A stretch of DNA of 64,000 bases from Sodalis ligni (GTDB lineage Bacteria > Pseudomonadota > Gammaproteobacteria > Enterobacterales > Enterobacteriaceae): contig NZ_CP075169.1 of assembly GCF_016865525.2 (NCBI RefSeq), positions 5,146,337 to 5,210,336 on the forward strand, read 5' to 3'. The position numbers and the translations under genes were made by a program. The number at the start of each line of letters is the position of its first letter. The first letter of the stretch is position 1. Below are positions 9,783 through 29,048 of this stretch, piece after piece. Under the pieces are notes generated by a model, which saw only the letters and a program-made list of their open reading frames with translations, was not told the origin of the DNA and did not search any database.

Positions 9783-10580
9783 ATGCAGAAATTCTTGGGA
9801 GATAACATGACCATTCAAAGCGTAGCCAGGGCCTGTGCCATATTGAAGTTATTTCAACAGCACGAAAAACTCTCCATTGCCAAAATGTCCCAGTTTATGG
9901 GGCTGAGCAAAACCACCGTGCACGGTCTGGTGAAAACCCTTGAAGCGGAAAAGCTGCTGCAGCAGGATGAAAAATCACGGCTTTATTCCCTAGGTCACGT
10001 CAATTATGAACTGGGGATGCTTTATCAGTCGCGTATCGTCACCCATGCGGTGGTGTTGCCCTGGATGAAAAAGCTCAGTGAACAGGTGGAGGAGACGGTT
10101 CAGCTGGCGACGCTTACGGATCAGGATGTGATTTATCTGTCGCGCGTCACCACGCAGGATTTTTATGGTTTCTCCATTGCCGAAGGCCTGCGCATGCCTG
10201 CGCACTGTACCTCCACCGGTAAATGCATGCTGTCCAGCCTGTCCCGTGAACGCCTGCTGGAACTCTATCCCCGAGAAGAGCTGCCGACCCGCACCGCCCA
10301 TACCATTCCCACGCGCAGCCGGCTGTTCGCCGCGCTGGAACAGATTGCCCGGGCGGGTTACGCCATCGATGATGAAGAGGCCGAACCTGAATTGCGGGGC
10401 GTGGCGGTGCCGATCATCGCCGCCGCCAGCAAGGTGCCGCTGGCCATATGCATTTCCGGCACGGTCAGGCATATGACCGATGCGCGCATCGAACAATATC
10501 TGCCCGCGCTGCAGCAGACCAAAGAAGAGATCGTCAAGTTCCTCGGCACCGGCGGGCTGCATGCTGCGGCGATGTATTAG
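9783..10580 (+). CDS. IclR family transcriptional regulator (second copy)
   Basis: 265 aa from the ATG at 9783 (ACGGAGG 11 bp upstream), or 257 aa from MTIQSVARACAILKLFQQHE at 9807, which matches usual IclR N-termini. The HTH is SIAKMSQFMGLSKTTVHGLVKTLEAE. The effector domain has RMPAHCTSTGKCMLSSLSRERL and YAIDDEEAEPELRGVAVPI, close to KdgR/YiaJ-type members. It is divergent from the other iclR gene and convergent with the PhyH gene, overlapping its 3' end by 4 bp. Its targets are unclear. KdgR-like regulators often respond to sugar acids, which would suit the GH88 gene, but this is inference. Confidence 0.87.
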   Translation: MQKFLGDNMTIQSVARACAILKLFQQHEKLSIAKMSQFMGLSKTTVHGLVKTLEAEKLLQQDEKSRLYSLGHVNYELGMLYQSRIVTHAVVLPWMKKLSEQVEETVQLATLTDQDVIYLSRVTTQDFYGFSIAEGLRMPAHCTSTGKCMLSSLSRERLLELYPREELPTRTAHTIPTRSRLFAALEQIARAGYAIDDEEAEPELRGVAVPIIAAASKVPLAICISGTVRHMTDARIEQYLPALQQTKEEIVKFLGTGGLHAAAMY

Positions 10581-11383
10581 CCGCCGGCCCGCCAGACCAC
10601 CGGGAATGCCGGGCAATCCAGCACGCCGCCGTTCTTTGGACCGTCGCGGGACGGCTCTGGGGGAGACATCTTCCCGCTGCGCCGACGGAATACCGCGTCA
10701 TCGCCGGTCCAGCGCGTGGATAGTACCCGTCGCGGCAGCGGCGTAATATTGCCGGCGGCGCCGTGCAGGGTCAACCCATGGAATACCAGGCAATCGCCGG
10801 GCTCAAGGGCCCAGCGGAGAATGGGGTAGTCGCCGCGGCGCCCTTCAATATCGGGTAGTATGTCCCACTGTTCGTTGTCACCGGGCCGCAGCTCGCCGGT
10901 GGCGAACACCTGCGGACGGAACCATTTTCCCCAACGGTGGGAACCGGCGACAAATTCCAATGCGGTTTCATTCGCCACCGGGTCAATGGGCAGCCAGATT
11001 GTACAAAAATCCCTGCCGTCCACCGGGCTGTAGGGTTGGTCCTGATGCCAGAGCGTGCGTTGCGAGGCACCGGGCTGTTTGGACAAAACGTGATCGTGCA
11101 GAAAATTGATTTTTGAAGAACCCAGCAGGGCGGCGGCTATCTCTTTGGCCGGTGAATGAAAGACAAAATCCTGGAAATGTTCAATGCGCCGCCAGTTGTC
11201 GCTATCCTGAAAAAACGTTTTGGTGTCAGGATCGGTATAACGGCCATGATCGCTGGGGAATGCGATATTATAGTTGATACCCTGTTCAACGCTATCCAGC
11301 CATTGCCTTGAGAATGCGCCGCGGATAATCACCGCGCCGTCGCGGGCGAATGCCTCTTTGTCATGGGGGGAAATGTCAATCAT
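10577..11383 (-). CDS. Phytanoyl-CoA dioxygenase (PhyH) family Fe(II)/2-oxoglutarate oxygenase
   Basis: About 268 aa from MIDISPHDKEAFARDG; the start at 11383 is favoured over 11386 by a GGAG about 5 bp upstream. The His-X-Asp iron motif is in TLWHQDQPYSP and the distal His in CLVFHGLTLHGAAGN. The C-terminal LSTRWTGDD is typical of PhyH. These enzymes hydroxylate or oxidatively demethylate small molecules. It is the last gene of the minus-strand set binding protein-permease-ATPase-two-domain protein, so it probably acts on what that ABC system imports. It ends convergently with the second iclR gene, overlapping by 4 bp and leaving no room for a terminator. Confidence 0.85.
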   Translation of the reverse strand: MIDISPHDKEAFARDGAVIIRGAFSRQWLDSVEQGINYNIAFPSDHGRYTDPDTKTFFQDSDNWRRIEHFQDFVFHSPAKEIAAALLGSSKINFLHDHVLSKQPGASQRTLWHQDQPYSPVDGRDFCTIWLPIDPVANETALEFVAGSHRWGKWFRPQVFATGELRPGDNEQWDILPDIEGRRGDYPILRWALEPGDCLVFHGLTLHGAAGNITPLPRRVLSTRWTGDDAVFRRRSGKMSPPEPSRDGPKNGGVLDCPAFPVVWRAGG

Positions 11384-11498
11384 CATATCTCCACGGGAAA
11401 TATACCCTGGATAATTCAAGCTGCGGGCAAGCCAGCGCGCCTGCAACCAGAAGTATGCCAGGGTTAGCGGATTAATATTCCGCTCTATTAATCTATAT

Positions 11499-12458
11499 TC
11501 AGACCTTTTCCGGATTCCAGCGCCCCGGGAATTCCTGGCCGCCCAGCTGGCGGTTATAGAACATGCCCAGATACCAGGGGAAATATTGATAAGACCAGGC
11601 GCACAGCCGGTTGCCGTATTTCAGGAAAGCCCGCAGCAGTTCCTGCACCTCTTCTTTACTTTTAGCGGCGGCGATAGCGGGACGCAGTAACCCGGCAAAT
11701 TCTTCCAATTTATATAATCCGCTGACGCCAAGATAGCTGGAATAAGGCACATCGAATTCATTCAGCGTGATGGAGAAATCTTCCAGGGACAGCCTATTGC
11801 TCAAGGTCAGCAACGGATACATGGTATACATGATATAATCACGCAGCATGCCGTTGGCGAAATCCCAGGCGGTAAAATACTGCCCGTAGGTGCCCGTTGA
11901 TTCCACGCGGCCCAGGCGAATATCCCGTAAATCCTCAGGCTCGGTTAATGAAATACGCTCGGCTTCGGCTAAAAAGGTCTTCGCCACGTCGGAGGTTACG
12001 TTGACGGCTTTCGGTACGCCGGGGTGGGCCGCTTTATCATGGGCCGAAACCTCAACGAACAATAAATCTTTTTGCCAGAACAGATTATTCCATACCGCTT
12101 TACCCACGTCGGGCAATAAATGGCAATACTCCTGCAATACCTGTCCCAGCACCGGCTGCGCCAGCGGCTCCAGCCCCACGCCGTACTGAATGGACATTTT
12201 ATTGCCGGTTGACTGGGAATAACGCAGCCGGCCCACCGGGCAATCGGTGATCAATTCACGATGATGTACCGGCGCGCTGCTGACAATCGGCGTCCAGGCA
12301 TACATGGACGCGCCGGATACCACCGGATGCGCCTGTAAAATCTTGAACGGCAAATGCTGCCAGAACTCTTCACACAGCTCCGGGTTTTTTTCATCATTTA
12401 ATTCGGCCACCACGGTCACACCCAGGGATGGCCAGCTAATATCGATCAAACGTCCCAT
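11499..12458 (-). CDS. Two-domain protein: cyclophilin-like (DUF3830-type) domain then an unknown domain
   Basis: 319 aa from MGRLIDISWPSLG (GAGG about 7 bp upstream). Residues about 5-140 look like a DUF3830/cyclophilin-like fold: SLGVTVVAELNDEKNPELCEE, LPFKILQAHPVVSGASMYAW and GRLRYSQSTGNKM. Residues about 190-305 form a second, conserved unit: TYGQYFTAWDFANGMLRDY, YTMYPLLTL, FDVPYSSYLGVSG and CAWSYQYFPWYLG. The gene at 26496 carries the same two units in reversed order. I know no function for either. No signal peptide or membrane segment is seen. It lies between the amino-acid ABC genes and PhyH on the same strand; an ERIC element separates it from the ATPase gene. A catalytic or substrate-binding role in the pathway is only inferred. 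Confidence 0.75.
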   Translation of the reverse strand: MGRLIDISWPSLGVTVVAELNDEKNPELCEEFWQHLPFKILQAHPVVSGASMYAWTPIVSSAPVHHRELITDCPVGRLRYSQSTGNKMSIQYGVGLEPLAQPVLGQVLQEYCHLLPDVGKAVWNNLFWQKDLLFVEVSAHDKAAHPGVPKAVNVTSDVAKTFLAEAERISLTEPEDLRDIRLGRVESTGTYGQYFTAWDFANGMLRDYIMYTMYPLLTLSNRLSLEDFSITLNEFDVPYSSYLGVSGLYKLEEFAGLLRPAIAAAKSKEEVQELLRAFLKYGNRLCAWSYQYFPWYLGMFYNRQLGGQEFPGRWNPEKV

Positions 12459-12491
12459 CTTCACACCTCATCTGTCATTACATCATGGTCC

Positions 12492-12614: not shown

Positions 12615-12637
12615 TTTATACATGCCGTCCGGCATGG

Positions 12638-13432
12638 TTATATTTTATGCAAAACCTTATTCAAAAATATCCTGGTACGGGGATTGTCCGGCGAGGTGAA
12701 TATTTTTTGCGGCGGCCCTTGTTCAATAATTTCCCCGCCATCCATAATGACCACCCTATCGGCGACATTGCGGGCGAATTCCATTTCATGGGTCACGACT
12801 ATCATGGTCATCCCTTGGGAGGCCAAGCCCTGCATAACGCTCAGCACTTCCCCCACCATTTCCGGATCCAGGGCGCTGGTGGGTTCATCAAACAGCATTA
12901 CCTCCGGATTCATTGCCAATGCGCGGGCAATGGCGACGCGTTGCTGCTGGCCGCCGGATAATTGCGATGGGTAGTGCGTTAATTTGTCTCCCAGCCCGAC
13001 CCGTGCCAATAATTCCATCGCCCGGCGCTCCGCCTGCGGTTTATCCTGATGCAATACGCTTACCGGCGCCTGCATGACATTCTCCAGGGCGGTCATGTGA
13101 GGGAACAAATTAAAGCGCTGAAATACCATGCCGATGCGGCGGCGCAGCAGGGCGATATTTTTCTCGCTGTCCTCAATCAGCCGACCGTTTTTTACCCGGT
13201 AGCCAATCAGGTTGCCCCCCACATGAATGGTGCCCTGCTGAATTTTTTCCAGATGATTGATGCAGCGGATCAACGTGGTTTTACCTGAACCCGACGGACC
13301 GATAATCACCAATGTTTCACCGGTTTTCACCGTTAACGACACGTTGCGCAGCACCGGCGTCTCGCCATAAAATTTCATCACATCCCGGCAAACCACCGCA
13401 TCGGACGGCGTAGACAGCTCATCAAGACTCAT
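12638..13432 (-). CDS. Polar amino acid ABC transporter ATP-binding protein
   Basis: 264 aa. Walker [10 protein letters not shown] (residues about 45-53), Q-loop FQRFNLFPH, signature LSGGQQQR, Walker [15 protein letters not shown] and H-loop THEMEFA. The sequence is of the HisP/GlnQ class that powers uptake of polar or basic amino acids. It overlaps the 3' end of the permease gene by 11 bp, indicating translational coupling. Its cognate binding protein gene upstream is broken, so the importer is probably inactive unless another binding protein substitutes. Confidence 0.93.
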
Positions 13433-14219
13433 CGGCCAACTCCGCCAGCTGATTTGTGGGTGTATTTTTGGCCCGCTTGACAGTTTTTGCCGATAAATGC
13501 CGGCTCATATTTCTTTCCAGCAGCATCTGGATAAGGGTCCAGCCGGCGGTCAGCAATAAATAATATACCGACACACCTAAATACACTTCGAAGGTCATAA
13601 AGGTCGCCGCCTGCAATTGCTCCGCGACGCGGAACATTTCCGACACGCCGATAATGCTTAACAGCGCGGTGGTTTTAAGCATGTTATTAAACTGATTGCC
13701 CAACGCGGGAAATATGACCGGAATAGTCTGTGGCAAAATAATTTTTCGCATCAATAATCCGGGGGTCATCCCCAGCGCTTTGGCCGCTTCCGACTGGCCT
13801 TTGTCGATAGATATAATTCCCGAACGGGTAATTTCACTCATGTAGGCGGCCTCGTGCAGACCGAAAGAAAATATGCCTGCCACCAGCGCCCCTGAAACAG
13901 CCAGCGGCCCCAGGCTTAATACCGAAGGAAAGAGATCAAAGCCCAATAAATAGGGCAGGCCGAAATAAATCAGCACCAATTGAACCAATACCGGGGTGCC
14001 GCGAAAAAACCAGATATATAGCTGATTCAATGACCGGAATATCAAAAAGCGGCTCATTCCGGACACCGCCAGCAGGATACCCAGCGCCATGCCGATCAAT
14101 TGCGCGACGATGGCGGCAATAACGGTCAACACCAGCCCTTCCAATAAAACGGGTTGCGGGTGAAAGACAAAATTAAGGAAAAAACCCGTATTGAACTGCA
14201 GCTGAATATGTGTGAACAC
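13422..14219 (-). CDS. Polar amino acid ABC transporter permease
   Basis: 265 aa of the HisM/GlnP (HEAT) type, with about five membrane segments. Visible: [42 protein letters not shown] and the EAA loop [44 protein letters not shown]. It is one subunit of the importer encoded at 12638-15094. It starts 34 bp downstream of the broken binding-protein gene. A single permease gene suggests a homodimeric pore. Confidence 0.92.
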
Positions 14220-14253: not shown

Positions 14254-15094
14254 TTAATCGGCACAGGGGTGGCTGCTGCTGCAGAGATCAACGCCTTTAT
14301 CGATACCCCATTTTTTGACGATTTTCGTCATGGCGCCGGACGTATTCAATTCGTCTATGCCGGCCTGGACGGCCTGCCGCAGGGCGGTATTATTTTTAAG
14401 CGTGGCGATGACCCAGGTCTTGGCGGGTACCGGCATGTCCACGGTCTGGAATTTATTCGGCGCCTTGGACATATAGAAATTGATCACCACATTATCCCCA
14501 CCATGGCATCCGCCCGCCCCCGCAGCAAATCATGGAAAGCGGCGACATTGGTGCCCAGGGATACCAGGGTTATGCCGGGCTTGCCCTCTTTACCAGCTGG
14601 TCGCTGAACTGTTTAACCACCGTTTCGTTGCGGCTGCCCAGCAAAGCGGCTACCCGCCGGCCGGAGAGATCTTCAAAGGTGTGGAATTTAAGCGGATTGC
14701 CCTTGGTCACCAGCAGTCCGGATTTTACCCGCCAGTAATCAATCAGCCCGTAGCGTTCGGCCCGCTCCGGGGTTTTACCCAGGCTCGCCATCACCAAATC
14801 GCATTTACCGGTATCCAGCGCGGCAAAAATGCCGGAAAACTGATAATTATCGATATGCGTTTTAACCCCCATCAAGGGGCCCAGCGCGTTCATGATATCC
14901 ACCGCGACGCCGCTTGGGGTTTTACCATCCTCCGCCATTCCTTCAGCCGGCGGGTTTTCCAGGTCGGAACAAAAAGTCAGCTGCCCCTTGGCTTTGATGT
15001 CAGCCGGAGCGGTAACCGCTGAAAAGGCGAACTGCGATGCCATGGACAACGACATGCTCAACGCCGCACCGATAAACAATTGCTTTTTATTCAC
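14254..15094 (-). pseudogene. Polar amino acid ABC transporter substrate-binding protein, two frameshifts
   Basis: The N-terminal piece starts MNKKQLFIGAALSMSLSMAS (signal peptide) and follows a SBP-3 fold to QFSDQLVK, then shifts near 14593-14597, where one G seems lost (…CTGGTAAAG…). The frame GKEGKPGITLVSLGTNVAAF… then runs to about 14497, where another G is missing from a G run. The third frame VINFYMSKAPNKFQTVDMP… ends at 14254. Restoring both bases gives one continuous family-3 solute-binding protein of about 280 aa. Two separate indels in one gene favour genuine decay over a single read error. It is the first gene of the operon and lies 125 bp downstream of a TGTATATACA operator. Confidence 0.88.
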
Positions 15095-15219: not shown

Positions 15220-15229
15220 TGTATATACA
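15220..15229. promoter_or_regulatory. HutC-type operator (TGTATATACA), site 1
   Basis: Perfect palindrome in the promoter region of the amino-acid ABC operon. It matches the core of known HutC operators (TTGTATATACAA-like), and a HutC-like GntR regulator is encoded at 15578-16381. The gene-free stretch 15095-15577 is otherwise A+T-rich around 15230-15340; an 8-bp inverted repeat (TATGGTTT/AAACCATA) lies at about 15242-15270. The G+C-rich tail 15360-15577 shows nothing convincing. Confidence 0.7.
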
Positions 15230-15577: not shown

Positions 15578-16381
15578 TCAGGCCGGGTTCGGGCCGGGCC
15601 CGAAGCGCACCAGAAAGCGGTGCCGCTCGCCGGGATAGATGAGACGCACAAAGGTGATTAATTCACCCGACAGCCAGGTTCGGCGCGCAATGGAGATACA
15701 GGCGGTGCCGGGGGATACGGAGAGCTGCCTGGCCAGGACATCATCGGCGGAAATGGCGCGCAAGGAGTGCTCCCCTTCCGACCAGGGGATATTGCTTAAC
15801 AGCCAGCTTCCCGGCGGAATATCGGTGAACTCCTCTTCCGCCGCTTCGGGCACCACCGCCAGGTTTATCTGGCGCGCTTCCAGGGCGAACGGCAGATTAT
15901 CCGCGTAATGCATCACATCAATGCACAGCATGCGGGCATTAACCGGGATACCGATATGGGTGGCCTCCACCGCATCGGTGATGGTACGGATGCCGCGATA
16001 CAGCAGCGTAAAGCTATACATTCCGTCGGTGGCCAGCACCTCGGCGCGGATATCCTGGATAGCCAGCAGCGGTTCTTCAACCCTGGGCATGGCCACAAAC
16101 GAACCCTTCCTGCGCTTGCGGACAATCATCCCCGCCGCCACCAGCGTTGAAAGCGCCTTGTTTACCGTCATGCGCGAGCAGTTATAAATCTCCATCAACG
16201 CCTGTTCGGTGGGGACACGATCGCCGGGATGCCACTCGTTACTCAGAATTTTATTTTTGATATCGCTCTGAATACTCTGATGAATCGGCAAGGGTTTGAC
16301 CCGGACGCGTCTGATGGTTTCACTCTTGAACTCGGGTTCCGACAGCGAGGGTTTAGTGGTATTGGGTCTATTTTGGTCCAT
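15578..16381 (-). CDS. HutC-like GntR family repressor
   Basis: 267 aa from MDQNRPNTTKPS (AGGGACGTT before the ATG); an upstream codon at 16408 is less likely. The GntR winged HTH is at residues about 35-105: HQSIQSDIKNKILSNEWHPGDRVPTEQALMEIYNCSRMTVNKALSTLVAAGMIVR. The UTRA effector domain ends with EARQINLAVVPEA, WSEGEHSLRAI, ISIARRTWLSGELITFVRLIYPGERHRF, the pattern of the histidine-utilisation repressor HutC. HutC senses urocanate in characterised bacteria. Copies of TGTATATACA flank this gene and the hutH operon, supporting local repression of the whole 10.6-29 kb cluster. About 30 N-terminal residues before the HTH are an extra extension. Confidence 0.87.
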   Translation of the reverse strand: MDQNRPNTTKPSLSEPEFKSETIRRVRVKPLPIHQSIQSDIKNKILSNEWHPGDRVPTEQALMEIYNCSRMTVNKALSTLVAAGMIVRKRRKGSFVAMPRVEEPLLAIQDIRAEVLATDGMYSFTLLYRGIRTITDAVEATHIGIPVNARMLCIDVMHYADNLPFALEARQINLAVVPEAAEEEFTDIPPGSWLLSNIPWSEGEHSLRAISADDVLARQLSVSPGTACISIARRTWLSGELITFVRLIYPGERHRFLVRFGPGPNPA

Positions 16382-16512
16382 AACGTCCCTTTTCAATAGC
16401 TTGTTCAATAACTTGCAAAATAATGATAAGCGATATCATACAGCCAAAACACACACCCATCTGCCAATGCCTAACGCCGAACGGTTGAACGTAGCGCCGG
16501 ACATGGCACCGG

Positions 16513-16735: not shown

Positions 16736-16790
16736 CAGAAAGCCGTGATTTTCGTCTGTACGGGCTTTACTTCCCCCCTTGATATTATAT

Positions 16791-16800
16791 GGTATATACC
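16791..16800. promoter_or_regulatory. Variant HutC-like operator GGTATATACC
   Basis: Palindrome sharing the GTATATAC core with the perfect sites, about 72 bp upstream of the hyuA ATG, where it could overlap the promoter. Confidence 0.4.
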
Positions 16801-16872
16801 AATCAATTAAAACCAGCTTTTCCCTTATCTTTCCTGCGGATTAAGGGAAACCGCGATTGACGGGTGAACGGG

Positions 16873-18924
16873 ATGATAAGAATAGGGGTTGATATCGGCG
16901 GAACCTTCACCGATTTCGTCGTCTGGCGCAGCGGCGGGCGGCAGGAACAATGGCAATCCTTTAAGGTACCCTCCACCCCGCCGAATTTCGCCCGGGGTTT
17001 TCAGGACGGATTCGAAAAACTGCTGGCTGAACTGGCCATCGGGCCGCAAGAGCCTGTGGTGATAATGCACGGCACAACCGTCAGCACCAATGCGGTGATT
17101 GAACGCTCCCAGCCGCCGGTGGCCCTGCTGGTTACCCAGGGATTTCGGGATATTTTGGAATTGCAGCGGCTGCGCCTGATTGATCCCACCAATCTGCTGG
17201 GCACGCGCAGGCTGCCGCTGATTGAACGCCACCAGGTCTTTGAAATAGGGGAACGCCTGGGGGCGGACGGCGCTATCGTTGAACCGCTGTCGGCGGATTC
17301 GGTGGCCCTGGCCGTTGAACAGGTGCGCGCCGCCGGCATGACGGGCATAGCCGTCGCCTTTATGAACAGTTACCAGAATCCCGCCCATGAACAGCAGACC
17401 CGCGCATTGATTAACCGGCTGGCGCCGGAGCTGGATGTTTGCCTGTCAAGTGATGTCTGGCCGCGTCCGGGAGAGTATGAACGGGCCATCAATGCGCTGC
17501 TGAACGTCTACGTTAAACCCTGCATGTCCTCCTATCTGCAGCAGATTGAAAGCTATCTCGCCAGCCGCCTGCGGCACGTCCAGCTGTTTATCACCCGCTC
17601 CAACGGCGGCGCCATGTCGGCGCGGGAAGCGCGGGATTTCCCGGTGCATACCCTGCTTTCCGGCCCCGCCTCGGGGGTCACGGCGGCGCAGCTGATGGCC
17701 CGCGCCGCGCCGGAACGGCACTATCTCACCATGGATATGGGGGGCACCAGCACCGATATTTCCCTTATCCGCGAGGGCATGGCGGCGGTAGTGGATCAGA
17801 CGGAAGTGGGCGAGTTTCCCCTTACCATGCCGGTGACCGGCATTGAAGCCATCGGGGCGGGAGGCGGTTCCATCGGCCGCTTTGACGGACCGGTATTCCG
17901 TATCGGCCCGATGAGCGCCGGCGCCTGGCCCGGACCCGCCTGCTTCGGCCGGGGAGGAAACCGGCCCACCGTCACCGATGCCTACCTGCTGTGCGGCTAC
18001 CTGTCCGCCGATGCCTTTCTCGGCGGCGCCATGATCCTGGATCGGGACGCGGCCCATCAGGCGTTTATGCCCCTGGCCCAACGCATGGGGGAGACGGTGA
18101 CCGGCGCGGCCAGCGCCGCGATTTCCATCGCCACCTCCAATATGGTGGCCAGCGTCTTGCCCTACCTGGCCCGCCACGGCGTTGACCCTCAGGATGTCAC
18201 CCTGGTGACGTTCGGCGGCAACGGCGCCATCCACGGACCGCTGCTGGCGGCGGAAATCGGTATCCCCTCCCTTATCGTGCCCAATACCCCTTCGGTTTTT
18301 TGCGCCGTGGGCGGCGTGGTGGCGGAGCTGACCCACGACATGGTGGCCATTGTGCAACAGGGGGCCATGGACACCACCCGGTTACGGCAGGTTTTCACCG
18401 CCTTGCAGGATGAGGCCGCCGCATGGCTGGCGCGGCAGACCGATGCGACCAATATAGAGGCCGTCGTGCTGGAATACTGGGCGGATCTGCGCTATCGCGG
18501 CCAATCATTTCAGATACCGGTGATAATCGCCGCCGACGCGCCAGACCACATGACCACCGAGATGGCCGTTAGCGCCTTTCACGGCGAGCATCTGCGTTTG
18601 CATGCCCATGCCGATCCCCAGGGACGGGTGGAATTTATCGAACTACGGGTGCGTATCCGCGGCGCGCTGGCTACCCCCGACAGCCATGCGCCGGCGGAGT
18701 TGAAATCCGTTGCCGCCCCGAGTCCCTGCGGCCACCGGCAGCTGCACATCGGCGCCGCGCATTTCGACCACTGCCCGGTCTATGCCAGGTCAGGCCTCGG
18801 CGTCGGCGCGAGCGTTTTTGGACCCTGTATCATCAGCCAGAGCGACGCGACAGTACTGGTTCCACAGCATTTCACCGCCCGGGTGCAGCCCGACGGCGCC
18901 CTTTTTATGATGCAGGAGCGTTGA
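16873..18924 (+). CDS. hyuA: Hydantoinase/oxoprolinase subunit A (HyuA family)
   Basis: About 683 aa from MIRIGVDIGGTFTDFV; a GTG at 16864 is an alternative. The ASKHA-type ATP-binding motif DIGGTFTDF opens the protein. HGTTVSTNAVIERSQ, SNGGAMSAREARDFPVHTLLSGPASGV and TMDMGGTSTDISLI follow, and the C-terminus is normal for the family. With subunit B it performs ATP-dependent opening of a hydantoin or 5-oxoproline-like lactam ring. The gene heads a seven-gene operon with hyuB and a peptide-type ABC importer, preceded by HutC-like operators. The true substrate within this broad family cannot be read from sequence. Confidence 0.9.
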   Translation: MIRIGVDIGGTFTDFVVWRSGGRQEQWQSFKVPSTPPNFARGFQDGFEKLLAELAIGPQEPVVIMHGTTVSTNAVIERSQPPVALLVTQGFRDILELQRLRLIDPTNLLGTRRLPLIERHQVFEIGERLGADGAIVEPLSADSVALAVEQVRAAGMTGIAVAFMNSYQNPAHEQQTRALINRLAPELDVCLSSDVWPRPGEYERAINALLNVYVKPCMSSYLQQIESYLASRLRHVQLFITRSNGGAMSAREARDFPVHTLLSGPASGVTAAQLMARAAPERHYLTMDMGGTSTDISLIREGMAAVVDQTEVGEFPLTMPVTGIEAIGAGGGSIGRFDGPVFRIGPMSAGAWPGPACFGRGGNRPTVTDAYLLCGYLSADAFLGGAMILDRDAAHQAFMPLAQRMGETVTGAASAAISIATSNMVASVLPYLARHGVDPQDVTLVTFGGNGAIHGPLLAAEIGIPSLIVPNTPSVFCAVGGVVAELTHDMVAIVQQGAMDTTRLRQVFTALQDEAAAWLARQTDATNIEAVVLEYWADLRYRGQSFQIPVIIAADAPDHMTTEMAVSAFHGEHLRLHAHADPQGRVEFIELRVRIRGALATPDSHAPAELKSVAAPSPCGHRQLHIGAAHFDHCPVYARSGLGVGASVFGPCIISQSDATVLVPQHFTARVQPDGALFMMQER

Positions 18925-18926
18925 CC

Positions 18927-20984: not shown

Positions 20985-22529
20985 ATGCGTCATCTGCTTA
21001 GGCAAATCTTGTTAGCGCCCGTGGGTAAATCCGGCATGCATACATCAAGAATGCGGGGCTGGCTTTTCGCCTTGATGATGTTCAACGCCGTGCCGGCAAG
21101 CGCACTGGCGGATACGGTAAATATCGCCCTATCCGCCGGGCTGACCACTCTCGATCCCCAGCAGGCCACCGTGGTGCAGACGGATCTGAGCGTCATCAGC
21201 CATATCTATACCCCCCTGGTGGTGCGCAATGCCGACCTGAGCATTATCGGCGTGGCGGCCACGTCGTGGAAAGCGCTGGACGATCGGACCTGGGATATCA
21301 AGCTGCGCCCCGGCATCCTGTTTACCAACGGCAAACCCCTGGATGCGGCGGTGGTAAAATGGAATTTTGACCATTTGCTCGATCCCAACCATAAAACCCG
21401 GGTGAAGGAGTGGTACAGCCTGATTGACCATGTGGACGTCGTGGCCCCCGACGAAGTGAAAATTGTCACCAGCGCGCCCTTTCCGGGACTGATTGCCCAG
21501 CTCAGCATGTTTTTCCTGATGGAGCCCACCTGGACCGCCGCCCACGATCCCGGCCGCGAAGCCATGGGCAGCGGACCGTACCAGCTGGCGCAGTACGTGC
21601 CGGGGGAGCGGGTGGTGCTGACGCCCAATCCGCATTATTTCGGCCCGAAAGCCGCCCACGACCAGGTGATTTTCCGCATGATCAGCGATCCGGCGGTACG
21701 GGTTTCGGCGCTGCTGTCCGGCGAGCTTGACCTGGCGCTGGATATTCCGCCCACCGACATCGACCGGATCAATAAAAGCAGCGTGGCCCATGCCGGCTGG
21801 GGTGAAAGCAGCCGCGCCATGATAATCAAGCTCAACAGCCTGAAAAAGCCCTTCGCCGATAACCTGAAATTGCGCCAGGCGATGAATTACGCCATCGACC
21901 GCCAGGGGATTATCGATGCCATCTATAACGGCCACGGGGCCATGAGCAAGGGCCAGCTATTGTCCCCCATGTACTTCGGCTACAACGATAAGCTGCAGCC
22001 CTATCCTTACGACCCGGACAAAGCCCGGCAGCTCATTGCCCAATCGGGCCTGCCGCAGCCCATCTCGTTTGAACTGCAGGTTCCGCTGGGACGCTATTTG
22101 CTGAGCCAGGAAATCGGCCAGATCATCGCCGCCCAATTGCAGGACGTGGGGCTGGATGTGAAAATCAGGGAGATGGAATACGCCAACTGGTCCAATGCCT
22201 ACACCCGCGGCGATATGGGCCAGGCCTCCTTCCTGGGCCAGGCCTGGCCGACCCTGGATGCCGACGGTCTGCTGGGGCTCTATCTGCCCACCGATCCCGG
22301 CGCGTACTGGAAAGACCCGGCATTTGCCGATTTGGTGCTGAAAGCCCGTTCAACGGTGGATAAGCAAAAGCGCATCGTCTATTACCAGCAGGCGACGGAG
22401 CGGATGCGCGATCAGGCCCCGGTGGTGTTTTTGTTCAACCAGCCCCTGACCTACGCCACGTCCAATAAATTCAGTTGGAAAGTCCGGGGCGATGACTGGG
22501 TCCGCGTCGATGATTTAGTGGCAAAATAA
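20985..22529 (+). CDS. Peptide/opine-type ABC transporter substrate-binding protein (SBP family 5)
   Basis: 514 aa with a long N-terminal signal region ending near VPASALA. SBP-5 landmarks are GLTTLDPQQAT, LRPGILFTNGKPLDAAVVKWNFDHLLDP, MGSGPYQLAQYVPGERVVLTPNPHYFG, LRQAMNYAIDRQGII and DPDKARQLIAQSGL. It captures a periplasmic ligand for the downstream permeases and ATPases. ATG at 20985 follows TTGGAGACC. It lies 95 bp after hyuB, so the imported ligand is probably the source of the hydantoinase substrate (inference). Confidence 0.93.
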   Translation: MRHLLRQILLAPVGKSGMHTSRMRGWLFALMMFNAVPASALADTVNIALSAGLTTLDPQQATVVQTDLSVISHIYTPLVVRNADLSIIGVAATSWKALDDRTWDIKLRPGILFTNGKPLDAAVVKWNFDHLLDPNHKTRVKEWYSLIDHVDVVAPDEVKIVTSAPFPGLIAQLSMFFLMEPTWTAAHDPGREAMGSGPYQLAQYVPGERVVLTPNPHYFGPKAAHDQVIFRMISDPAVRVSALLSGELDLALDIPPTDIDRINKSSVAHAGWGESSRAMIIKLNSLKKPFADNLKLRQAMNYAIDRQGIIDAIYNGHGAMSKGQLLSPMYFGYNDKLQPYPYDPDKARQLIAQSGLPQPISFELQVPLGRYLLSQEIGQIIAAQLQDVGLDVKIREMEYANWSNAYTRGDMGQASFLGQAWPTLDADGLLGLYLPTDPGAYWKDPAFADLVLKARSTVDKQKRIVYYQQATERMRDQAPVVFLFNQPLTYATSNKFSWKVRGDDWVRVDDLVAK

Positions 22530-22541
22530 CAGGCGACCCGC

Positions 22542-23462
22542 GTGGCTAAATATATTCTGTCCAGAGTAGTAGAAGTGCTGATTGCCCTGTTCGGCCTGGT
22601 GACCATCATCTTTCTGGTATCGCGCATGCTGGGGGATCCGGTATCGCTGCTGCTGCCCCAGGGCGCCAGCGCCGCCGACCTCCAGGCCATGCGGGAGCAG
22701 TTGGGGTTGCAGCGCCCGCTGCTGGATCAATATCTCGGTTTCCTGCGCCATGTGCTGTCGGGGGATCTGGGCACCTCCTTTTTTTATCAGCGCCCGGCGC
22801 TGCAGGTGGTGCTGGAACGCATGCCGGCCACCCTGGCGCTGACGGCGCTCTCCGCCCTGTTCGGTCTGGCGATAGGCTGCCTGGCCGGCCTGGTGGCGGC
22901 CCTGTACCGCAACTCCGTCTGGGAATTTCTGGTGCTCACCCTGGCCATGCTGGGGCAGGCCACTCCGGCGTTCTGGCTGGCCATTATGCTGATCCTGCTG
23001 TTTTCAGTCCACCTGGGCTGGCTGCCCACCGGCGGCACCGGCAGCGTGCTGCATCTGGTGATGCCCACCGCCGTCATGTCGATTTTCATCGCCGCCAATA
23101 TCGCCCGCCTGTTTCGATCCAGCCTGCTGGAGGTCATGGGCGAGGACTATGTGCGCACCGCCTGGGCCAAGGGCCTGCCGCCGCGGACGGTTATCAGCTG
23201 GCATATGGCGCGCAACGCCGTCCTGCCGGTGGTGACCATGAGCGGGCTGCTGGTGGGGGAGATGCTGGGGGGATCGGTGGTGGTGGAAACCATTTTTTCC
23301 TGGCCGGGGGTGGGCCGGCTTATCGTCGAGGCGGTGGCTAACCGGGATTTCCCGTTGATCCAGGCGGGGGTGGCGGTGGTGTCCGGCCTGTTTTTACTGG
23401 TGAGCCTGGCGGTAGACCTGCTGTACAGCCTGCTGGATCCGCGCGTGAGGCAATCCCCATGA
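22542..23462 (+). CDS. Peptide-type ABC transporter permease (DppB-like)
   Basis: 306 aa, GTG start (GTGGCTAAATATATTCTG). N-terminal TM and large periplasmic loop with QLGLQRPLLDQYLGFLRHVLSGDLGTSF. The EAA-type loop is LLEVMGEDYVRTAWAKGLPPRTVISWHMARNAVLPVVTMSG, followed by EMLGGSVVVETIFSWPGVGRLIVEAV and DPRVR at the C-terminus. Six TM segments are expected. It pairs with the next permease, which it overlaps by 4 bp (ATGA). Confidence 0.94.
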   Translation: MAKYILSRVVEVLIALFGLVTIIFLVSRMLGDPVSLLLPQGASAADLQAMREQLGLQRPLLDQYLGFLRHVLSGDLGTSFFYQRPALQVVLERMPATLALTALSALFGLAIGCLAGLVAALYRNSVWEFLVLTLAMLGQATPAFWLAIMLILLFSVHLGWLPTGGTGSVLHLVMPTAVMSIFIAANIARLFRSSLLEVMGEDYVRTAWAKGLPPRTVISWHMARNAVLPVVTMSGLLVGEMLGGSVVVETIFSWPGVGRLIVEAVANRDFPLIQAGVAVVSGLFLLVSLAVDLLYSLLDPRVRQSP

Positions 23463-24334
23463 TCAGGGCTGACGGCTTGCGAAGCCTGGGCCGCAGCCTG
23501 GCGGCCAGCAAAATCGGCCTGATTGGCTGGGTGGTGCTGCTCCTGCTGCTGCTGGGGGCATTGAGCACGTCTCTGCTGCCCCTGCCCGACCCGGTGCACG
23601 GCAATCTTTTACAGCGGTTAAAGCCGCCCTCCTATCGGTTTTTCACGCTGTCGTCCCATCCCCTGGGCACCGATCAACTGGGACGGGATATGTTCAGCCG
23701 CCTGCTGTTCGGCAGCCGGGTATCCATTACCGTGGGCTGCGCCGCGGTGCTGATGGGCGGGGTGGTGGGCGTGCTGGTGGGCATGATCTCCGGCTATGCC
23801 GGCGGTATCACCGATCGGGTATTGATGCGTTTAGTGGATATGCAGCTTTCCATCCCGCTGATTTTGCTGGCGCTGATGGTTATCGCCGCCGCCGGGCCCA
23901 GCCTGGGCAATCTGATTATCGTGCTGGCGCTTACCAGCTGGATCCGCTACGCCCGCCTGGTGCGCGGCCAGGTATTGGCCCTGCGGCGCCAGGAGTTTGT
24001 CCTGTCGGCCACCGCCGTGGGAGCGGGACCCTGGCATATCCTGCGCTATTATCTGCTGCCGAATGTTCTCACCCCGATCCTGGTTATCGCCACGCTGGAG
24101 TTTTCCCGGGTTATCTTGCTGGAAGCCAGTTTAAGCTTTCTGGGGCTGGGCGTTCAGCCGCCCTGGCCGAGCTGGGGCAGAATGCTGGCGGAAGGGCGCA
24201 CCTATATCGCCACCGCATGGTGGGTCACCACCTTTCCGGGGCTGGCTATCGTATTAACGGTGATGAGCGCCAACTTTGTCGGTGACTGGCTGCGCGATTT
24301 TTTTGATCCCAAACTGCATTCCACCGGAGAATGA
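23459..24334 (+). CDS. Peptide-type ABC transporter permease (DppC-like)
   Basis: 291 aa. HPLGTDQLGRDMFSRLLFGSRVS is the classic DppC/OppC motif. The cytoplasmic coupling loop is FVLSATAVGAGPWHILRYYLLPNVLTPILVIATLEFSRVILLEASLSFLGLGVQPPWPSWGRML. It overlaps both neighbours by 4 bp (ATGA), so the four transporter genes after the binding protein are translationally coupled. Confidence 0.94.
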   Translation: MIRADGLRSLGRSLAASKIGLIGWVVLLLLLLGALSTSLLPLPDPVHGNLLQRLKPPSYRFFTLSSHPLGTDQLGRDMFSRLLFGSRVSITVGCAAVLMGGVVGVLVGMISGYAGGITDRVLMRLVDMQLSIPLILLALMVIAAAGPSLGNLIIVLALTSWIRYARLVRGQVLALRRQEFVLSATAVGAGPWHILRYYLLPNVLTPILVIATLEFSRVILLEASLSFLGLGVQPPWPSWGRMLAEGRTYIATAWWVTTFPGLAIVLTVMSANFVGDWLRDFFDPKLHSTGE

Positions 24335-25359
24335 AGCCTATGCCGCCGCTGCTGGAAGTGCGTAATCTCACCGTTGAGGTACCCGCTAAACGGGGACGGC
24401 CCCCGGTGCGTATCATCGAGGATATCAGCTATGATCTGGATTACCATCAGACTCTGGGCATCGTGGGAGAGAGCGGCAGCGGTAAAAGCATGCAGGCCCT
24501 GGCGATGCTGGGGCTGCTGCCCCTGCGCAAGGGCGGGCGGATTCAGGGGGAAGTGCTGTTCCAGGGCAAGGACCTGTTGACCCTGTCCCCTAAAGCGCTC
24601 AGGGAGATTCGCGGCGGCCAGATAGGCATGATCTTCCAGGAGCCGATGACCTCCCTCAATCCGGTGCTGACCATTGGCCGCCAGCTGGCGGAACCCCTGG
24701 TGCATCATATGGGCATGAGCTACGGCAAGGCGCGCCGGCATGCCGTCGACCTTTTGGGGCTGGTGGGCATTCCCGATGCCGCTGAACGGATCAGGCAGTA
24801 CCCGTTCCAGTTTTCCGGCGGTATGCGCCAGCGCGCCATGATCGCCATGGCCATTGCCTGTAAGCCGAAGCTGCTGATCGGCGACGAACCCACCACCGCC
24901 CTCGATGTCACCATCCAGGCGCAGATTATCCAGCTGATTCGGGATCTGCGCGACGAGATGCGGATGTCCATTATCTGGATCACCCATGATATGGGGGTGG
25001 TGGCCGCCATGGCGGACCGGGTGCAGGTGCTGTACGCCGGTAAAATCATGGAAACGGGGCCGGTGGAACAGGTTTTCGGCCAGCCCTATAGCGCCTATAC
25101 CTGGGCACTGCTGCAATCCCTGCCCAAACGCGGCCAGCGCCCCAGGGAACCGCTGTTTCAAATCGCCGGGCAACCCATCAACCCGGCCCTGCGGCCGCCG
25201 GGGGATCCCTTTGCGCCGCGCAATCCCTTCGCCACCCCGCGCTGCCATCTGGAAATGCCGCCACTGCGACCGGTGTCCGACGCCGCACCGCAGCACCGGG
25301 TGGCCGCCTGGTACGATCTGCCCCGCTGTCTGGAACAACAACAGGAAAATAACCCATGA
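24331..25359 (+). CDS. Peptide-type ABC transporter ATP-binding protein (DppD-like)
   Basis: 342 aa. Walker A GESGSGKSM, Q-loop FQEPMTSLNPVLTIG, signature FSGGMRQRAMIAMAI, Walker B LLIGDEPTTALDVT and H-loop THDMGVVA. The C-terminal oligopeptide/dipeptide extension (ALLQSLPKRGQRP…) is present but lacks the usual Fe-S cysteine pattern. It forms a heterodimer with the next ATPase. Confidence 0.94.
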   Translation: MKPMPPLLEVRNLTVEVPAKRGRPPVRIIEDISYDLDYHQTLGIVGESGSGKSMQALAMLGLLPLRKGGRIQGEVLFQGKDLLTLSPKALREIRGGQIGMIFQEPMTSLNPVLTIGRQLAEPLVHHMGMSYGKARRHAVDLLGLVGIPDAAERIRQYPFQFSGGMRQRAMIAMAIACKPKLLIGDEPTTALDVTIQAQIIQLIRDLRDEMRMSIIWITHDMGVVAAMADRVQVLYAGKIMETGPVEQVFGQPYSAYTWALLQSLPKRGQRPREPLFQIAGQPINPALRPPGDPFAPRNPFATPRCHLEMPPLRPVSDAAPQHRVAAWYDLPRCLEQQQENNP

Positions 25360-26330
25360 ACCATGCCCCGCCGCCCGCTACGGCAACAGAAAGGCAGGCT
25401 ACGAGCCACGCCCCATCGCCCCCGGCCCGGCCGCCGCTATTGCAGGTTGAGGGCTTAAGCAAAGAGTATCCGGTCAATAGTCCGTGGTTCGGCCGGCGCG
25501 GGGTGTTCACTGCGGTGGGGGGCGTGAGCTTTTCCCTGGCGAAAGGAGAAACCCTGGGATTGGTGGGCGAATCCGGATCGGGGAAAAGCACCGTGGCGCG
25601 CTGTCTGATGCAGCTGGAACGGCCCACCGGCGGCCGGGTCTTACTTGAGGGACAGGATCTGGCGCAGCTCGGCCAAAGCGAGCTGCGGCCGCTGCGCAGA
25701 GTTATGCAGATCATCTTTCAAGACCCCTACTCCGCCCTCAACCCCCGCATGACCGCCGGCCGGTTTGTGGCGGACCCTATTATTATCCACGAGGGAAGGC
25801 AGCCCCGACAGGCTTTAGAGCAGCGGGTAGAGGCACTGTTCGCCAAGGTGGGGCTGGACAACAGCCATATCCATCGATATCCCCATGAATTTTCAGGCGG
25901 CCAGCGCCAGCGCATCTGTATCGCCCGGGCCCTGGCGCTGTCGCCCCGGTTAATCGTGGCGGATGAGCCGATTACCGCCCTGGATGTCTCCATTCAGGCG
26001 CAAATAATCAACCTGCTGCAGCAGTTGCAGGATGAACAGGGACTCTCTTACCTGTTTATTTCCCACGATCTGGGCATGGTCCGCCATATCTGCCATCGGG
26101 TCGCGGTGATGCTGCGCGGCATGATTGTGGAAACCGGTTCCGTGGAGGACATTTTCAACGACCCGCGCCATCTTTATACCCAGGCGCTGCTCAGCGCCAC
26201 TCTTGAAGCCGATCCGGCCCTGGAGCGCAGTAAAAAGCGGACGTTTTATAGCCCAACCCCCGCCGGAAGGTTGACCGCCGGCTATATGCGCGAAGTATCG
26301 CCGGGACATTTTGTCCGGGAAGAGCTGTAA
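25356..26330 (+). CDS. Peptide-type ABC transporter ATP-binding protein (DppF-like)
   Basis: 324 aa. Walker A GESGSGKST, FQDPYSALNPRMTAG, signature FSGGQRQRICIARAL, Walker B IVADEPITALDVS, H-loop SHDLGMVRHICHRVAVM, and C-terminal YTQALLSATLEADP. About 25 N-terminal residues (PPPATATERQATSHAPSPPARPP) form a low-complexity Pro/Ala/Thr extension. It is the last gene of the hyu-ABC operon; the next 165 bp hold two HutC-type operators. Confidence 0.94.
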   Translation: MNHAPPPATATERQATSHAPSPPARPPLLQVEGLSKEYPVNSPWFGRRGVFTAVGGVSFSLAKGETLGLVGESGSGKSTVARCLMQLERPTGGRVLLEGQDLAQLGQSELRPLRRVMQIIFQDPYSALNPRMTAGRFVADPIIIHEGRQPRQALEQRVEALFAKVGLDNSHIHRYPHEFSGGQRQRICIARALALSPRLIVADEPITALDVSIQAQIINLLQQLQDEQGLSYLFISHDLGMVRHICHRVAVMLRGMIVETGSVEDIFNDPRHLYTQALLSATLEADPALERSKKRTFYSPTPAGRLTAGYMREVSPGHFVREEL

Positions 26331-26384
26331 GGTGAGGTAAAACAGCCCCGGTTCCGAATGCCGGTTGTCGTTTCAAACCACAAA

Positions 26385-26394
26385 TGTATATACA
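26385..26394. promoter_or_regulatory. HutC-type operator (TGTATATACA), site 3
   Basis: Perfect copy within AATGTATATACATAAT, 21 bp (two helical turns) centre-to-centre from site 4 and about 100 bp upstream of the two-domain/hutH operon. The spacing suits cooperative binding. Confidence 0.75.
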
Positions 26395-26405
26395 TAATAT
26401 TATAT

Positions 26406-26495: not shown

Positions 26496-27449
26496 ATGAG
26501 TTATACGAGCCTTGGCGATGTGATTAACGACATCCACAGCCATACCGGGCTAATCGCCCATGATGAACCCGCCGAGATCCACGCCTTTCGCACCGGCACG
26601 CTGGACAATCAGGCGGGAAGCTACGGTCAGTATTTCGGGACCTGGGATATCGCGGCCGGCATGATGCGCGATTACTCCATGTATACCTATTATCCGCTGC
26701 TGCAGATCGTTGAAAATCCGGCCATCGATCTGTCCCAGTTCGCCTTTATCCTCGACAGCTTCGATCACCCCTACAGCAACTATCTGCGCTACAGCGGTTT
26801 TCCGAAAATGGGCAAGCTGGCCTTCGCCATGCGGGAATGGCTGCCGCAGGCCGAGTCGCGCCGGCAGGCGGTTGAAGCCATCAGGGCGTTTTGTATATAC
26901 ACCAACAAAATGGCCGCCTGGTCTTTCCACTACTTTCCGTGGCGCCTGGGTAAAGAGTTTACCTATAGCCAGCCCGAAGCGGCCGCCCCTTCCCTCGCCG
27001 ACCCGGCGCTGCGGGTAAAAATCAACCAGGGCCGCAAGATTCGCCTCACCTGGCAGCCGCTGGGCATCACCGTGGACGCCTATCTGGCGGTGAATGAAAA
27101 CCCGGAGCTGTGCCAGGATGTGATCAACGCCCTGCCCTTTACCATTTTGCAGGATCACGCCGTGGTCACCGGCGAGTCCATGTATGCCTGGTGCCCGCTG
27201 GTATCCACCGCCCCTATCCATGTGCGGGAAAGAATCTGCGATGCCCCGAAAGGGCGGCTGCGTTTTTCCCAGTCCACCGGACAAAAATTCATCGTCCAGT
27301 ACGGCCCCACCACCGAGGATTTGGCCCAGCCGGTATTGGGGGAAGTGGTGCCGGAACATACCGATCGTCTCGACGCGGTGGGTATCGAGGTCTGGAAAAG
27401 CACCTTTGAAACCAAAACCCCTATCTGGCTGCGGGTAGAACTGGCCTGA
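26496..27449 (+). CDS. Two-domain protein: unknown domain then cyclophilin-like (DUF3830-type) domain (swapped order)
   Basis: 317 aa from MSYTSLGDVINDI (AGGAG 8 bp upstream). Residues about 43-155 are the unknown domain: SYGQYFGTWDIAAGMMRDYSM, YTYYPLLQI, FDHPYSNYLRYSGF, AAWSFHYFPWRLG. Residues about 180-317 are the cyclophilin-like unit: KIRLTWQPLGITVDAYLAVNE, LPFTILQDHAVVTGESMYAW, RLRFSQSTGQKFIVQYG, EDLAQPVLGEV. Both units align with the 11499-12458 protein but in the opposite order. No function is known to me. It starts about 80 bp after a tandem pair of HutC-type operators and is followed 57 bp later by hutH, so a role in the same pathway is likely. Confidence 0.78.
   Translation: MSYTSLGDVINDIHSHTGLIAHDEPAEIHAFRTGTLDNQAGSYGQYFGTWDIAAGMMRDYSMYTYYPLLQIVENPAIDLSQFAFILDSFDHPYSNYLRYSGFPKMGKLAFAMREWLPQAESRRQAVEAIRAFCIYTNKMAAWSFHYFPWRLGKEFTYSQPEAAAPSLADPALRVKINQGRKIRLTWQPLGITVDAYLAVNENPELCQDVINALPFTILQDHAVVTGESMYAWCPLVSTAPIHVRERICDAPKGRLRFSQSTGQKFIVQYGPTTEDLAQPVLGEVVPEHTDRLDAVGIEVWKSTFETKTPIWLRVELA
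26892..26901. promoter_or_regulatory. HutC-type operator decamer inside the two-domain gene, site 5
   Basis: Perfect TGTATATACA about 400 bp into the coding region (TTTTGTATATACACC). It may act as a roadblock or looping site with sites 3 and 4, or be a chance result of the codons for CIYT. Confidence 0.4.
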
Positions 27450-27506
27450 CCGTATTATCTATCCCTAAATAGGGATAGAGGTAATCCACTCCACAGGAAT
27501 GACAGC

Positions 27507-29048
27507 ATGATTATCTTAAAACCCGGCAAGGTGACCTTGCCGGAGCTGGAGCAAATTTACCGCTCCGACGTGGGCGTCCGGCTCGATCCGGCGATGGAAG
27601 GGGCAATACAGCACAGCGCGGCGCGGGTGGCGCAGATTGTGGCGGGGGATGCGGCGGTCTACGGCATCAATACCGGGTTCGGCAAGCTGGCGTCGGTGCG
27701 CATTCCCACCGAAGACGTAGCCACCTTGCAGCGCAACCTGATTTTATCCCACTGCTGCGGCGTGGGGGAAGCGCTGGCCAGGCCGGTGGTGCGCCTGATC
27801 ATGGCCCTTAAGCTTATTTCCCTGGGACGGGGCGCCTCCGGGGTGCGCTATGACATTATTCGTCTTATCGAAGGAATGCTGGCCTGCGACGTCATACCGG
27901 TGATTCCCGGCCAGGGCTCGGTGGGCGCCTCGGGAGATTTGGCGCCCCTGGCGCACATGGTGGCGGTGATGATAGGCGAAGGCGAGGCGGTGATGCTCGG
28001 ACAAAGAATGCCCGCCCGGCAGGCGCTGCAGCTGGCGGGGCTGAAACCGGTGGTGCTGGCGGCCAAAGAGGGCCTGGCGCTGATCAACGGCACGCAGGTT
28101 TCCACCGCCCTGGCCCTGGCCGGACTGTTCGGCGCTCATCGGGCGCTGCAAACCACGCTCATCTCCGGCGCCCTCACCACCGACGCCATCATGGGCTCCA
28201 CCGCCCCGCTGCATGATGAAATCCATCAACTGCGCGGGCACCGGGGACAGATAGACACCGCCCGAAGCCTCAGCCGTTTGCTGGCAACGTCAGAAATACG
28301 CCAAAGCCATTTGGAAAACGACCCGCGCGTGCAGGATCCCTATTGCATCCGCTGCCAGCCGCAGGTGGCCGGCGCCGCCCTTGATTTGATCCGCCAGGTG
28401 GCGGCCACGTTATGCACCGAAGCCAACGCCGTCACCGACAATCCGCTGCTGCTGTCCGATAATACCGTGGTGTCCGGGGGAAATTTTCATGCCGAGCCGG
28501 TGGCGTTCGCGGCGGATATCCTGGCCCTGGCCATTGCCGAGATAGGTTCCATCGCCCAGCGGCGCATTGCCCTGATGGTGGATCCCGCCTTGAGCTTCGG
28601 CCTGCCGGCATTTCTGGTGGCCGCTCCCGGGCTTAACTCCGGCATGATGATCGCCGAAGTGACCTCAGCCGCCCTGATGAGCGAAAACAAGCAAATGACC
28701 CATCCCGCCTCGGTGGACTCCACACCCACCTCCGCCAACCAGGAGGATCATGTCTCCATGGCCTGCCACGGCGCGCGCCGCCTGCTCAAAATGCTTGATA
28801 ACCTCAATGCTATCTTAGGGATTGAAATCATGGCCGCCACCCAGGGCATTGAATTCCGCGCGCCCCTCGCCACCAGCCCTGAGCTGCTCAAGGTAACGCG
28901 GCAGGTGAGAAAACAGGTAGCCCCGCTGACCACCGATCGCTACATGGCGACGGATATCGCCAATGCCGCGCAGATGGTTGCCTCCGGCGCCATCATCGGC
29001 GCCCTTGGCAGCGACGGATTGTTACCGCCGCTGGCGGGAGGGAATTAG
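27507..29048 (+). CDS. hutH: Histidine ammonia-lyase
   Basis: 513 aa, the normal HutH length. The MIO prosthetic group forms from Ala141-Ser142-Gly143 in [15 protein letters not shown]. Other active-site residues are visible: Tyr52 ([11 protein letters not shown]), His82 (SHCCGVGE, the histidine-selecting position), Asn194 (LINGTQVS), Tyr279 and Arg282 ([10 protein letters not shown]), Phe327 (GGNFHAEP) and Glu413 (NQEDHVSM). It converts histidine, or a close analogue, to urocanate and ammonia. No hutU, hutI or hutG is in the window. It is instead coupled to a two-domain unknown protein and controlled by HutC-type sites, so an analogue such as a modified histidine is possible. ATG at 27507 follows CCACAGGAATGACAGC. 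Confidence 0.9.

Follow-up and report, generated by a model that had tools for sequence, protein, structure and literature searches.

A gene cluster on the chromosome of Sodalis ligni, located in a 64,000-nucleotide stretch of contig NZ_CP075169.1 (positions 5,146,337 to 5,210,336 of the forward strand; the window below means this whole stretch), probably serves the uptake and breakdown of a histidine opine of the cucumopine/mikimopine type under a dedicated repressor of the HutC family. It combines ATP-binding cassette (ABC) importers, a hyuA/hyuB pair, hutH and two proteins of the cucumopine-synthase/McbB/KslB family (hereafter Cus family) with a hutC-like gene. Sites, site conservation, protein families and synteny were computed. 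An earlier, sequence-only reading of the window had proposed that one HutC-like regulon ties three transcription units together; as a set of predicted operators this regulon is well supported, because phylogenetic footprinting and agreement with the published HutC consensus both favour it, although one of its sites and its extent have to be corrected.

Scanning of the window returned the five exact copies of the decamer TGTATATACA on which the proposal was built, at 15220, 16634, 26385, 26406 and 26892, as well as the HutC-family gene between them (15578-16408, minus strand) and the spacing of 21 bp, or two helical turns, between sites 3 and 4. The variant GTATATAC, placed at 16791 by the sequence-only reading, in fact starts at 16792 and is the core of a 12-mer, TGGTATATACCA (16790-16801). 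With one mismatch allowed, TGTATATACA has 6 matches in the window, compared to a mean of 0.62 and a maximum of 5 in shuffled sequences. The genome-wide scan that had been asked for reveals that the decamer is not common: there are 6 copies in 6.44 Mb, five of them in the window, while the reversed pattern, used as a control, occurs twice. If between 1 and 6 copies per genome are taken as background, the Poisson probability of five copies in 11.7 kb, an interval picked post hoc, is about 1e-12 or lower.

The sites had been placed before the amino-acid ABC operon, in the divergent regulator/hyuA gap and before the Cus-hutH unit, which holds for sites 1 to 4; four of the five exact copies and the TGGTATATACCA variant are intergenic. 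Operator 4 overlaps a weak promoter-like match, and scans for promoters and terminators gave roughly the shuffled expectation except around operators 3 and 4. Site 5, however, lies within a coding sequence, and the homologous place has different letters in all three relatives compared (Sodalis sp. dw_96, Acerihabitans and Martelella alba), for which reasons we regard it as probably coincidental.

The same relatives retain the other sites. Operator 1 is present in dw_96 (L052 1897), Acerihabitans (L053 15705) and M. alba (L030 8458), operator 2 in dw_96 (L052 454) and Acerihabitans (L053 17044), and operator 4 in all three; the pair formed by operators 3 and 4 recurs with its 21-bp spacing before the Cus gene of dw_96 and Acerihabitans, and these two genomes carry the exact decamer at the same three promoters. 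Operator 2b has a similar counterpart, TTGTATATACCA, in the Acerihabitans gap and like variants in Agrobacterium plasmid clusters. In dw_96 one extra site lies just upstream of hutC. M. alba has the decamer before the gene of the solute-binding protein and, as a single copy, between hutC and Cus; neither hyuAB nor the peptide importer found a match in the stretch compared. In alphaproteobacterial clusters the operator takes the form of TTGTATATACCA, TGGTCTATACAA, TGGTATATACAA and similar sequences in the gaps upstream of the DUF3830, Cus and hutF/hutI genes, with weaker versions (three mismatches) before the importer.

Near-operators, defined as 12-mers that differ from TTGTATATACAA at no more than two positions, were counted in 16 chosen clusters: 37 lie in the nine that encode a HutC of this type (mean 1.46 and maximum 6 in simulations) and none in the seven that lack it (simulated mean 0.65), where lacking it means no tblastn match within the stretch compared; the threshold was set after ten of the sixteen clusters and the window had been viewed, and the count was therefore not blind. 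Six of the 37 come from the window, while three near relatives contribute 14 and five alphaproteobacterial clusters 17, and on pRi2659 and pAvF25c six of seven are intergenic. Outside the 16, HutC-bearing loci of Agrobacterium vitis and A. fabrum, near copies of counted clusters, have 3 (L038), 2 (L045), 3 (L070) and 3 (L071) sites; single sites occur in L033, which has a distant HutC (28%), and in L040 and L041. Among loci with no HutC match, L047 has one chance-like site and L044, L046, L048, L049, L050 and L051 have none.

The regulator scores 266.2 bits with the TIGR02018 equivalog model (cut-off 220), and in a tree of HutC proteins it groups with those of the plasmid clusters (fork 94/94), far from the HutC of the genome's own hut locus. 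In this tree as in that of the Cus family, branches are long and several support values fall short of the star line. The consensus published for HutC, TGTA-N2-TACA (PMC12977541), is fitted as a pattern by the window operators at the regulator's own promoters. HutC operators and regulons as such are already known, as PMC12977541 and PMC5343134 attest; the word "opine" does not occur in the main text of the latter. The sixth decamer (G000:C1:5541919), 0.37 Mb away, lies about 36 bp before the solute-binding protein gene of an amino-acid ABC operon (L022 1049-5930; G000:C1:5537048-5541929) that ends in a HutH-like lyase (518.6 bits, hutH cut-off 539). Because of this position, and its conservation at the same distance from the gene in dw_96, this copy probably marks a fourth operon, and the regulon is probably wider than the window.

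The "two-domain" proteins of the sequence-only reading do possess two domains; their identity, which it had left open, is that of the Cus family (PF18631). Both consist of the PF18631 helical bundle and a cyclophilin-like domain, in opposite orders within one cluster. The protein encoded at 26496-27449 is about 50% identical in sequence to the Pictet-Spenglerase KslB, whose crystal structure, judging from the title of the entry, includes the product formed from L-Trp and 2-oxoglutarate. The AlphaFold model of the window protein is of middling quality (predicted local distance difference test score, pLDDT, 74.8; predicted template modelling score, pTM, 0.54), leaves the domain packing unmodelled and deviates from KslB by a root-mean-square distance of about 11 A, the cyclophilin-like half matching by fold; the likeness to KslB is carried only by this half and by the sequence match. 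A glutamate aligned to McbB Glu97, which we take to be the catalytic active-site residue, is present in both window proteins and invariant in 16 Cus-like sequences. The protein at 11499-12464 shares 64-67% identity with the DUF3830-family protein found in plasmid clusters; an assignment of the pair as plain DUF3830 proteins was rejected, the sole DUF3830 match lying below its cut-off (19.6 vs 26).

Identity of the 26496-27449 protein reaches 94% in dw_96, 84% in M. alba and 82% in Acerihabitans, and 55-57% on Agrobacterium/Rhizobium plasmids. The distribution in the host family is patchy, since only two of 198 sampled family genomes, the window's included, have a strong full-length match (three more have a weak one). 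The S. ligni genome itself holds a second Cus module (L021 8636-19000; G000:C1:744635-754999) in which the two domains are separate genes, next to its own hutH, an RpiR-type regulator, ABC permeases and hyuA/hyuB; exact and mismatch scans found no HutC operator there. A fourth PF18631 match (174.9 bits, G000:C1:1176727-1177629) belongs to a further Cus-like gene, with shikimate-dehydrogenase-like and other open reading frames next to it. Cus-like proteins also appear in sequence sets of the plants Cinchona, Saponaria and Gypsophila and of the fungi Mycena and Amanita (P0050, P0061, P0083, P0085, P0090, P0109), entries that may represent transfer or contamination and that were included in the Cus tree.

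The features of the cluster, assigned by Pfam and NCBIfam profile searches where they are proteins, are listed in the table. Directly downstream of hutH, on the other strand, lies a gene for a Fic-domain protein (PF02661; 29065-30582).

Table. Genes and predicted operator sites of the cluster (positions in the window)
Feature	Position	Strand	Basis or remark
PhyH-family dioxygenase	10577..11386	-	Pfam
Cus-family protein, cyclophilin-like domain first (McbB order)	11499..12464	-	PF18631 53.6 bits, cut-off 27
Amino-acid ABC ATP-binding protein	12638..13432	-	profile match
Amino-acid ABC permease	13422..14219	-	profile match
Amino-acid ABC solute-binding protein, interrupted	14570..15094	-	open frame 183 aa vs 294-302 in three relatives
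Operator 1, ATGTATATACAA	15219..15230	n/a	about 125 bp before binding-protein gene of amino-acid ABC operon
HutC-family repressor (GntR + UTRA)	15578..16408	-	Pfam, NCBIfam
Operator 2, ATGTATATACAA	16633..16644	n/a	divergent regulator/hyuA gap
Operator 2b, variant TGGTATATACCA	16790..16801	n/a	about 62 bp before hyuA
HyuA-like, hydantoinase/oxoprolinase/caprolactamase alpha	16864..18924	+	profile match
HyuB-like, interrupted near 19240	18927..20889	+	open frame 556 aa vs 631-665 in five relatives
Peptide-type ABC importer: binding protein, two permeases, two ATPases	20985..26330	+	profile match
Operator 3, ATGTATATACAT	26384..26395	n/a	before Cus-hutH
Operator 4, TTGTATATACAA	26405..26416	n/a	about 80 bp before Cus ATG
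Cus-family protein, helical bundle first (KslB/T-DNA cucumopine synthase order)	26496..27449	+	PF18631 65.6 bits, cut-off 27
Site 5, TTGTATATACAC (probably coincidental)	26891..26902	n/a	within Cus-like coding sequence 26496-27449, 0.6 kb before hutH
hutH, histidine ammonia-lyase	27507..29048	+	TIGR01225 697 bits, cut-off 539

The substrate class is suggested by the plasmids pRi2659, pAvF25c, pTiLBA1190 and pAtAg67, in which a Cus-like gene stands in one block with hutC, hutH, its paralogue, hyuA/hyuB and ABC importers, together with hutF/I/G/U and HutD. Of these, pAtAg67 is classed in PMC10745273, with reference to Hooykaas et al. 2022, as a catabolic plasmid of the octopine-cucumopine type that carries a region for cucumopine catabolism. 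According to PMC9103826, cucumopine and mikimopine differ in configuration at C-4, as diastereomers, and both include a fragment derived from histidine; to assign one Cus-family enzyme to each epimer would be a guess.

From these data we infer a model that extends to repressor binding, ligand, substrate, reaction direction and the lactam step. In the absence of substrate the repressor would occupy the operators before the unit of binding protein, ABC importer, second Cus protein and PhyH, in the regulator/hyuA gap and, as a pair, before Cus-hutH; entry of the opine through the ABC importers and its breakdown would yield urocanate, or a related product, and release it. HyuAB would open the lactam of cucumopine, a substituted 5-oxoproline, and the Cus-family enzymes would reverse the Pictet-Spengler reaction, yielding L-histidine and 2-oxoglutarate, a direction suggested by the gene set and synteny. 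HutH would convert histidine to urocanate, and the products of hutU, hutI, hutF and hutG, which lie elsewhere on the chromosome (2.96-2.97 Mb), would complete the breakdown. The lactam step is proposed because of general opine chemistry and the ATP-dependent lactamase nature of the HyuAB family. Such ATP-dependent lactam opening is reported for the HyuA/B family in PMC8453981.

Several observations weigh against this model. The hyuB and binding-protein frames look broken, so that these parts may be dead or the assembly wrong. The regulator remains far below the cut-off of a second HutC model, PRK14999 (140.8 vs 424), which the HutC of the genome's hut locus likewise misses (312 vs 424). On pRi2659 and pAvF25c no exact decamer was found at the promoters, variants being seen only once mismatches are allowed; across pRi2659, pAvF25c, pSYMBR3459, the own hut locus and L021 together, TGTANNTACA gave a single match, inside a coding sequence of L026. 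The degenerate pattern TKGTMTATACMA is near background genome-wide, with 5 places as compared to 3 for the reversed control (two of the five are 5962403, at a TonB-receptor-like open reading frame, and 6392270, with only one open reading frame of 120 aa or more). Clusters of the Burkholderia group keep the enzymes without this HutC, for which reason HutC control of such clusters, as predicted from their operators, is not universal. The plasmid block was equated with the cucumopine region of pAtAg67 by gene content, not by a published gene assignment; a reverse Pictet-Spengler reaction is not documented in the literature examined; and repressor binding and growth on the opine are predictions.

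Among other explanations, the one that survives best holds that the substrate is a different histidine-derived compound, either an adduct with another keto acid or an aldehyde, or a hydantoin or lactam of histidine breakdown; we consider it possible, if rather doubtful. Relatives occur in Chelatococcus, Microvirga, Paraburkholderia and Streptomyces, none of which we know to be tumour-associated, and an identity of about 54-56% to the Agrobacterium proteins allows for a changed specificity. However, the protein families of the cluster, with both Cus-family orders and hyuAB among them, are those of the cucumopine-plasmid blocks.

Alternatively, the ordinary HutC encoded at the hut locus (L019) might be the main protein to bind the sites, or might share them, which would place the cluster in one general histidine regulon. 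This is unlikely, although the published HutC consensus fits the window sites and the own hut locus (hutG, hutI, hutC, hutF, HutD and hutU) contains four 12-mers with two or fewer mismatches, including TTGTATAGACAA, ATGTATAGACAA and TTGTATAGACAG; moreover, TGTATATACA occurs near other HutC-like genes of M. alba (L056, 9090-10078) and Acerihabitans (L061, 18128-18949) and near the hutF/hutI region of Neorhizobium (L057). (The HutC-like genes in L056 and L061 adjoin genes resembling HisC-type aminotransferases and FMN-dependent dehydrogenases, FMN being flavin mononucleotide.) Yet three of the four hut-locus sites (L019 10713, 13025 and 15843) have the core TGTATAGACA instead of TGTATATACA, the 19.9 kb of that locus contain no TGTANNTACA, the two regulators are only 32% identical, and in the 16 counted clusters operators are found only where the local HutC type is encoded. 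Judging from these near-operators, the ordinary HutC probably reads a related operator and cross-talk may occur, and the two cores may reflect a specificity difference between two HutC proteins of one cell. The presence of similar sites in the own hut locus makes this alternative slightly more likely and lowers our confidence in the opine model slightly.

Quite improbable is the view that the cluster synthesises, and does not degrade, a Pictet-Spengler product such as a histidine alkaloid: KslB, McbB and the cucumopine synthase of transfer DNA (T-DNA) are named as biosynthetic enzymes and the PhyH dioxygenase could tailor a product, but HutH, a HutC repressor and two importers, each with a binding protein, are encoded in the same cluster, and the four plasmid blocks also hold hutF/I/G/U, one of the plasmids being called opine-catabolic. 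That the decamers are chance AT-rich palindromes deserves next to no credence, for even if site 5 looks coincidental and the reversed control occurs twice in the genome, the copies are clustered and keep position and spacing in relatives.

Uptake and breakdown of a cucumopine-type opine, the function we favour, also bears on the T-DNA itself. The synthase in the T-DNA of pRi2659, located beside RolB-family genes, shares 92% identity with its counterpart in the catabolic block. In the Cus tree (in which P0016 replaces row L032, whose matched part contains a stop) the two form a pair (93/96, a little short of the star line) nested in a clade (98/99) that also holds block copies from Microvirga and Neorhizobium and two copies of unknown context, and second A. 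vitis copies (L040, L041) branch elsewhere. This fits a descent, possibly repeated, of the T-DNA synthase from a catabolic gene, while gene conversion or descent in the reverse direction may also account for it; it suggests a possible route for the origin of a T-DNA gene. Tentatively, and with more doubt than conviction, we extend these observations to a system in which cucumopine is degraded by its own synthase family working backwards, as a pair of retro-Pictet-Spenglerases with swapped domain orders, HyuAB is an ATP-dependent opine lactamase, the plant-expressed T-DNA synthase descended from this bacterial catabolic enzyme, and the system circulates with its HutC switch well outside Agrobacterium, including Sodalis-like bacteria.

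In the open-licence literature we found no paper that joins cucumopine and HutH, which is weak evidence of novelty as most subscription journals lie outside it, and searches, mostly of listings and limited to open-licence papers, returned no bacterial enzyme for cucumopine breakdown. Two listed papers, PMC11885899 and PMC8747350, each contain a single mention of cucumopine and one of HutC, those in PMC8747350 perhaps being names of authors. Our analysis offers a testable candidate for such an enzyme, proposes a likely substrate class, an operator and a regulator for a cluster in which the root-inducing (Ri) and tumour-inducing (Ti) plasmid records examined label the key proteins "hypothetical" or "DUF3830", and would place opine-type catabolism on the chromosomes of Sodalis-like bacteria.

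Among known systems, a plain hut operon was rejected, given that hutI/G/C/F/HutD and hutU lie at 2.96-2.97 Mb; degradation of ergothioneine or a hydantoin, which hyuAB and hutH might suggest, was provisionally set aside once the Cus family and the plasmid synteny appeared. With the HutC histidine-utilisation regulons of Pseudomonas and other Proteobacteria the cluster shares a GntR/UTRA repressor, the TGTA-N2-TACA operator and hutH as a target, but its predicted targets are opine-type uptake and breakdown genes and a separate HutC is encoded at the hut locus. With KslB, McbB and the T-DNA cucumopine synthase it shares both domains and the conserved glutamate by sequence, and the cyclophilin-like half by fold, in contrast to which its surroundings are catabolic and both domain orders stand side by side. 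HyuAB has the family domains of caprolactamases, hydantoinases and 5-oxoprolinases, but scores far below the caprolactamase cut-offs (CapA 447.7 vs 1000, CapB 192.2 vs 1000), which therefore points to a different substrate. The closest likeness in gene set and related operators is to the blocks of Agrobacterium pAtAg67, pAvF25c and pTiLBA1190 and of pRi2659, with which hutC, hutH, DUF3830-type and Cus-type proteins, hyuA, hyuB and the amino-acid ABC importer are shared. The window cluster differs in being chromosomal and divided into three transcription units of another order, in its peptide-type importer and PhyH gene, in its exact TGTATATACA operators and interrupted hyuB and binding-protein genes, and in that no MmgE/PrpD or LysR gene lies inside it and hutF/I/G/U and HutD are at a separate locus. 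On this comparison of gene content it is filed as a putative relative, not a member, of the Agrobacterium cucumopine-catabolic block.

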